Source: Candidatus Acidulodesulfobacterium ferriphilum (GTDB taxonomy: Bacteria; SZUA-79; Acidulodesulfobacterales; Acidulodesulfobacteraceae). From it: a stretch of 64,000 bases of DNA. The stretch spans positions 788,368-852,367 of the forward strand of contig SGBD01000001.1 of the NCBI GenBank assembly GCA_004195035.1, written 5' to 3'. How positions within the stretch are numbered: the stretch's first letter is position 1; each line of letters opens with the position of its first letter. Under the pieces are notes generated by a model, which ran no database searches, was not told the DNA's origin, and worked only from the letters and a program-made list of their open reading frames with translations. The translations under genes and the position numbers were made by a program. Of the stretch, positions 35,455-35,678 are shown piece by piece.

Positions 35455-35470
35455 TGGCATGAAAATTGCT
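35455..35470 (+). promoter_or_regulatory. Sigma-54 promoter of nifH
   Basis: TGGCAT-GAAAA-TTGCT: GG and GC are 10 bases apart and both elements match the -24/-12 consensus. Transcription would start near 35481 and yield a ~198-base leader. I found no clear TGT-N10-ACA NifA enhancer between nifV and nifH, so the activator may be another bEBP. Confidence 0.8.
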
Positions 35471-35542
35471 CCTATTTAAATTAAATTAATCAAAGGAGTC
35501 CATGAATTAACTTATTTTAAAATTTTAAAATTAAATAAATAA

Positions 35543-35623
35543 AAGCGCAATTGGGCGCTTGTGGCGATGACGCCATAATTAAAGGGATTTGTATGCTTTA
35601 TCCCTTTGGTTATGGCGTTTTTT
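35543..35623 (+). terminator. nifH leader attenuator: two small hairpins overlapping an intrinsic terminator
   Basis: Hairpin P1: AAGCGC / GCGCTT with a 6-base loop (35543-35560). Hairpin P2: TGGCG / CGCCA around ATGA (35562-35575). Terminator: ACGCCATAA-TT-AAAGGGAT pairs with ATCCCTTT-GG-TTATGGCGT (35570-35588 with 35600-35618; two T-G pairs) and is followed by a T-run to 35623. The P2 right arm is the terminator left arm, so the two exclude each other. It lies between the sigma-54 promoter and nifH, 55 bases before the start codon. This is the architecture of ANTAR-controlled leaders. Confidence 0.8.
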
Positions 35624-35678
35624 GTTTTTAATTTTATTACTAATTCAATAAAACTATTTATTTTTGGAGGTAAAACAA

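Follow-up and report, generated by a model that had tools for sequence, protein, structure and literature searches.

Why should an intrinsic terminator stand between the promoter and the first gene of a nitrogenase operon? The question is raised by the nif cluster of “Candidatus Acidulodesulfobacterium ferriphilum,” a member of an uncultured lineage that cycles iron and sulfur and is a presumed supplier of nitrogen in acid mine drainage (PMC6776010). The cluster was analyzed within a 64,000-nt stretch of genomic DNA (contig SGBD01000001.1), referred to here as the window, in which all coordinates are counted from the first letter. An earlier note, made from the sequence of the window, had proposed that the nifH leader is a switch governed by an ANTAR-type regulator. 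Our analysis indicates that the leader is, with a probability of roughly 0.87, an ANTAR-dependent transcription attenuator (working by antitermination) of nifHBDKENX, and such a leader would likely place a second checkpoint, after the start of transcription, on one of nature's costliest enzyme systems.

The nif locus and its sigma-54 promoters

As judged from the open reading frames and their Pfam matches, nifV lies on the minus strand and the rest of the cluster, from nifH on, lies on the plus strand (Table 1), and the relatives have their nif genes in the same order. Because nifV diverges from nifH, the terminator can act only on the nifH transcript itself. The gene for a response regulator with receiver and ANTAR domains is located between nifX and nifI1 and is followed in the cluster by two PII genes, which resemble nifI1 and nifI2.

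Table 1. Features of the nif locus in the window
Feature	Coordinates	Strand	Basis
nifV	34089-35222	minus	ORFs and Pfam
Conserved upstream block TTTAATCA-N4-TGAcTAAA ... ATAAGCAAATTAA, candidate binding site for a sigma-54 activator	35353-35388	plus	Recurrence in relatives
Sigma-54 (-24/-12) promoter TGGCATGAAAATTGCT = TGGCAT-GAAAA-TTGCT; predicted transcript start near 35481	35455-35470	plus	Motif; conservation
P1 hairpin AAGCGC[AATTGG]GCGCTT, 6 bp, hexaloop 35549-35554, C:G closing pair	35543-35560	plus	Folding, covariation
P2 hairpin (predicted antiterminator) GTGGC[GATGAC]GCCAT, hexaloop 35566-35571, abutting P1	35561-35576	plus	Folding, covariation
Intrinsic terminator, 20-bp stem 35569-35588/35600-35619, 11-nt loop, T-run 35618-35623	35569-35623	plus	Folding, covariation
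nifH, first gene of the presumably controlled operon	35679-36542	plus	Pfam Fer4_NifH 2e-125
nifB-like radical SAM, methyltransferase, ferredoxin, nifD, nifK, nifE, nifN, nifX	36573-44883	plus	ORFs, Pfam
Second sigma-54 site TGGCATTAAATTTGCA, upstream of the ANTAR gene	44897-44912	plus	Conserved before orthologs, one with a changed base
Receiver-ANTAR response regulator, presumed antiterminator	44984-45592	plus	Pfam Response_reg 1e-21, ANTAR 3.9e-17

Taken alone, the sigma-54 motif upstream of nifH is weak evidence (2 matches in the window, with 0.80 expected by chance). What makes it strong evidence is conservation: a matching TGGC..TGC site (tested as TGGC-N7-TGC) is found upstream of nifH in all 21 leaders that were readable in our phylum sample of 30 genomes, all of one family; the TGGCAT-N5-TTGCT promoter named in the earlier note is indeed present. 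Approximately 100 nt 5' of the nifH sigma-54 site, positions 35353 to 35388 hold a palindrome-like TTTAATCA-N4-TGATTAAA, followed by TTAAGCAAATTAA. This block recurs ∼90 to 125 nt 5' of the sigma-54 site in most of the relatives that carry the leader element; it does not resemble the NifA consensus and may be the binding site of an activator. A search 5' of nifH in the window for the canonical NifA motif (TGT-N10-ACA) found none.

The second sigma-54 site ends 13 nt 5' of the ATG of the ANTAR gene in 10 orthologs (L003, L005 to L007, L009, L010, and L012 to L015), none of which has a visible Shine-Dalgarno sequence in front of that gene. This spacing predicts for these orthologs an ANTAR mRNA with a 5' leader of ∼2 nt, that is, a nearly leaderless sigma-54 message; the predicted leader is longer in the window and in genome G028. 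Sigma-54 promoters upstream of ANTAR genes have been predicted in other organisms (PMC12316311).

Structure and conservation of the nifH leader

The predicted folding energy of the leader is -47.8 kcal/mol (z -4.6), a value that none of 200 shuffled sequences matches. The terminator stem consists of 19 bp (starting with A35570 paired to T35618) plus a terminal G-U pair, and 55 nt separate its T-run from the nifH ATG (35679). The 3' arm of P2 and the 5' arm of the terminator have positions 35571 to 35576 in common, and their pairings are mutually exclusive. On stepwise folding of the growing RNA, P1 and P2 persist until ∼35611, whereupon the terminator displaces P2 by taking its 3' arm. Across the relatives, P1 and P2 together reach -10 to -17 kcal/mol and the terminator reaches -25 to -38 kcal/mol; the terminator would therefore win without help. 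In the P2 loop of the window, G35566 and C35571 can also pair to give a tetraloop form, and the same G1-C6 pairing is possible in any P2 loop that starts with G.

These foldings, a check that the earlier note had called for, bear out its description of P1, P2, and a 19-bp terminator with a T-run 55 bases upstream of nifH, as well as its view that P2 and the terminator exclude each other. The covariation in P1 and P2 that it had set as a test also proved positive. P1, P2, and the terminator are present in 15 of the 21 readable nifH leaders, the relatives likewise folding two consecutive hairpins with six-base loops. In P1 and P2, 11 cells of the alignment are changed on both sides compared to 3.0 in the shuffles (0 of 500 shuffles reached 11), and the terminator has 20 such cells compared to 5.3 (0 of 500), with 8 of its 16 pairs changed on both sides; the shuffles do not remove relatedness, and sliding controls that preserve it likewise score far lower than the true register. 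Compensatory changes are found in each of the three structures. Column 37 of alignment A2, the fifth base of the common strand, is an A with U24 and a terminator U in 5 aligned rows and a G with C24 (once U24) and a terminator C in the other 8. As read from this alignment, the common strand covaries both with the 5' strand of P2 and with the 3' arm of the terminator, a pattern characteristic of a switch between mutually exclusive states.

A covariance model of the element (R1) found one strong copy per genome in 15 genomes, always upstream of nifH and scoring 49 to 68 bits, with the next-best match in each genome at ≤23 bits. Five weak R1 matches elsewhere were inspected and set aside, as they lack a matching terminator and appear to be unremarkable sequence. 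A pattern search of the organism's own genome for further copies of P2 with the terminator returned the known site only, and a literature search found no description of such an element in this lineage. Searches of the leader against Rfam, at gathering and at relaxed thresholds, gave chance-level matches, none of them over a family's gathering threshold.

Two smaller features were seen in the same region. At positions 35493 to 35511, the leader reads AAAGGAG-TCC-ATG-AAT-TAA, a Shine-Dalgarno sequence followed by a two-codon open reading frame (ORF); the GGAG is kept in the leaders of several relatives, some of them with ATG-AAA-TAA and others without a mini-ORF. On the minus strand, P1 (35543 to 35560) runs into a T-rich stretch and is scored as terminator-like toward nifV.

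The ANTAR protein and its co-occurrence with the leader element

The genome carries exactly one ANTAR gene, the one within the nif cluster, and this gene is syntenic in the relatives. Its product consists of a receiver domain and a C-terminal ANTAR domain (PF00072 and PF03861, both over the cutoff) and can be aligned to EutV (PDB 6wsh). The phosphorylatable site of the receiver is kept, with D17, D18, D61, T88, and K115 invariant in 15 orthologs. Among the RNA-contacting residues of EutV (contacts as given in PMC8934654; alignment to PDB 6wsh/6ww6), R142, K143, K147, K149, E160, and M172 are kept. Tyr164, which in EutV stacks on the flipped G4 (PMC8934654), is replaced by His (Leu in G028), Arg175 by Gly, and Arg177 by Pro. 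Arg168 is replaced by Gln, which is common among the other ANTAR proteins in the alignment. EutW, the kinase of the eut system, is of the HisKA_2 type; a partner kinase of this type (PF07568), as would belong to a two-component pair of the EutVW/PdtaSR type, was found in 0 of the 30 phylum genomes, with two control genomes giving matches. Outside the phylum, a scan of named genomes with two peptide patterns showed no nif-linked ANTAR gene among the loci it returned.

Within the phylum, the nifH genomes of genus g2 have the sigma-54 promoter and lack the element, and five of them cleanly lack the ANTAR gene as well. The sixth, G005, holds an ANTAR gene on a 3.1-kb contig (L013, G005:C145) and has a g2-like nifH; it was rejected as a counterexample, since this contig shows 98.5% DNA identity to the ANTAR contig of G011, a genome of another genus, and is probably mis-binned. 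Genomes G008 and G021 carry the element, and no ANTAR gene was found in them; in both, the nif contig breaks off before the place where the gene would be. Presence and absence of the element and the gene in the phylum could reflect one evolutionary event, and Fisher values for their co-occurrence are therefore nominal. A hand-chosen sample of 16 Desulfobacterota genomes, supportive rather than a census, contributed seven nifH leaders with an A-N-N-G hexaloop that overlaps or adjoins a terminator, most of them with a recognizable sigma-54 site; ANTAR genes are found in 7 of the 7 genomes with hexaloop and terminator versus 2 of the 9 without. What stays constant in these leaders is P2, which in six of them reads GGC-A[AG]NG[AG]C-GCC or nearly so; P1 is in many cases weak or unrecognizable.

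The anatomy, conservation, exclusive pairing, and co-occurrence are observed in the sequences; ANTAR binding, in vivo termination, and the signal belong to the following inferred scheme. RNA polymerase would start at the sigma-54 promoter when a nitrogen activator is on and, by default, would stop at the terminator upstream of nifH. The receiver-ANTAR protein, if present in its active state (presumably a phosphorylated dimer), would bind the C:G-closed P2 hexaloop, with P1 serving as a second or recruiting site; P2, held closed, would keep its 3' arm out of the terminator and allow read-through into nifHBDKENX. Full nif transcription would then need an antitermination step. A conserved sigma-54 site also precedes the ANTAR gene, so nifH and its presumed antiterminator are probably switched on by the same activator, and a feed-forward gate that needs both inputs is likely.

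Departures from known ANTAR targets and alternative readings

The P2 loop has the consensus R-A-N-G-R-C, with G4 in 15 of 15 genomes; position 1 is A in 10 relatives and G in five genomes including the window, whose GATGAC loop recurs in G010, G008, and G022 and, as GACGAC, in G026. The consensus of the P1 loop is R-A-N-U-R-N, with U4 in 15 of 15 genomes, an invariant A2, and A (13 genomes) or G (2 genomes) at position 1, so that it departs from the A1/G4 consensus of ANTAR targets. A P1 loop shifted by one position to give A-N-N-G was tried and fails in G026 and G028. The earlier note had described the loops correctly (T as the fourth base of P1; four bases or GATGAC for P2), and its doubt about the A1/G4 consensus can be divided: for P2, a near-canonical hexaloop across the relatives, it is settled as regards G4, which all genomes have, A1 being found in most relatives (G1 in the window), and for P1 it stands, U4 being invariant. 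G4 makes the only base-specific contact in the EutV-RNA structure (PMC8934654), and an actinobacterial survey found A1 and G4 conserved in only somewhat more than 50% of cases (PMC8164766). The C:G closing pair, which is selected by NasR in vitro (PMC7496416), is invariant in both P1 and P2 of the relatives. The P1-P2 linker, of 0 nt in the window and 0 to ∼2 nt in the relatives when end pairs open, differs from that of the dual-hexaloop class, which comprises 5 to 12 nt in the eut leaders, where induction dropped strongly once only 3 nt were left (PMC3369931), and 2 to 25 nt in the actinobacterial survey (PMC8164766). The leader thus appears to work like an ANTAR antiterminator while being nonstandard in the dual-hexaloop class by two tested features, and is filed here as a variant.

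ANTAR-type antitermination of nif, the reading with the best support, is backed by the sole ANTAR gene lying in the cluster, by its co-occurrence with the element, by the G4 of P2, and by the kept contact residues. Against it stand U4 in all 15 P1 loops, the abutting of P1 and P2, the changes at Y164, R175, and R177, and the lack of HisKA_2 kinases in the phylum. A tentative scheme, which we rate as slightly short of even odds, would accommodate these departures as a compact form of ANTAR antitermination in this phylum. P1 would have lost the flipped-out G4 and come to abut P2, one canonical hexaloop would commit the dimer, and P1 would act as a stacked clamp or be read by the changed residues (H164, G175); a single operon would be served, and the activator would also drive the regulator gene, in most relatives as the nearly leaderless message.

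A sub-variant of the ANTAR attenuator, which we consider less likely than not, would make P2 the sole protein site and P1 a folding clamp that is stacked on P2 and unread by the protein. The missing G4 of P1 in 15 of 15 genomes and its abutment on P2 agree with it, as do the several Desulfobacterota nifH leaders that have the same P2 and terminator with no convincing P1 and the finding that EutV binds one hexaloop roughly as well as it binds two (PMC8934654); however, the P1 loop is always six bases long, is closed by an invariant C:G pair, and keeps A2 and, like P2, a purine at position 1, all of which would be needless for a mere clamp. It is improbable that the attenuator answers to another factor, such as a small molecule, a different RNA-binding protein, or translation of the short leader ORF: the GGAG and tiny ORF of some leaders, including that of the window, and the deviation of P1 from the ANTAR consensus would suit such a factor, but no Rfam family matches the leader, several switch-bearing leaders lack the mini-ORF, and the element co-occurs with the ANTAR gene. 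Least probable of all is an ordinary constitutive terminator or mRNA-stabilizing 5' hairpin without a switch, which would explain the high stability of the terminator alone (the -25 to -38 kcal/mol given above) but would merely waste transcripts upstream of nifH, would serve no upstream gene, as nifV is divergent, and would have no use for the 5' strand of P2, which covaries with the common strand.

ANTAR antitermination controls nif genes in Geobacter sulfurreducens through GnfK/GnfR. The GnfK/GnfR genes are listed for this organism (PMC7962754), and an ANTAR regulon of nitrogenase operons has been predicted in Pelobacter carbinolicus (PMC3369931). With these systems, the window would share ANTAR antitermination control of nitrogenase genes, and most of the Desulfobacterota leaders examined have in common a sigma-54 promoter, a GGC-A[AG]NGRC-GCC hexaloop, and an overlapping terminator; however, the Pelobacter targets form three units rather than one, and here nifX and nifI1 flank the ANTAR gene, P1 differs, and the phylum is another one. 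The EutV-type control of the Enterococcus eut operon (PMC3369931, PMC8934654) is similar in having a receiver-ANTAR protein, most of whose contact residues are kept here, and two small hexaloop hairpins, the second of which overlaps an intrinsic terminator; it differs in its target (here nif), G4 in place of the U4 of P1, the 5- to 12-nt linker where here there is none, and positions 164, 175, and 177, to which the missing HisKA_2 kinase and the one strong target per genome can be added. The NasR/nasF leader of Klebsiella is likewise an ANTAR antitermination control of a nitrogen operon with C:G-closed hexaloops, but nitrate is perceived by a sensor domain within NasR itself, whereas the input domain here is a two-component receiver (PMC7496416). 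ANTAR control of nitrogenase had already been predicted in Pelobacter, and what appears to be new is its altered, lineage-specific form.

The conserved U4 in the P1 loop and the missing linker offer a natural experiment on whether one hexaloop suffices for an ANTAR protein or a matching pair is required. Three Desulfobacterota nifH leaders (L199, L206, and L210) have a single AAGGC-AACGGC-GCYTT hexaloop that overlaps the terminator, with no recognizable A1/G4 P1, and are candidate one-hexaloop ANTAR targets.
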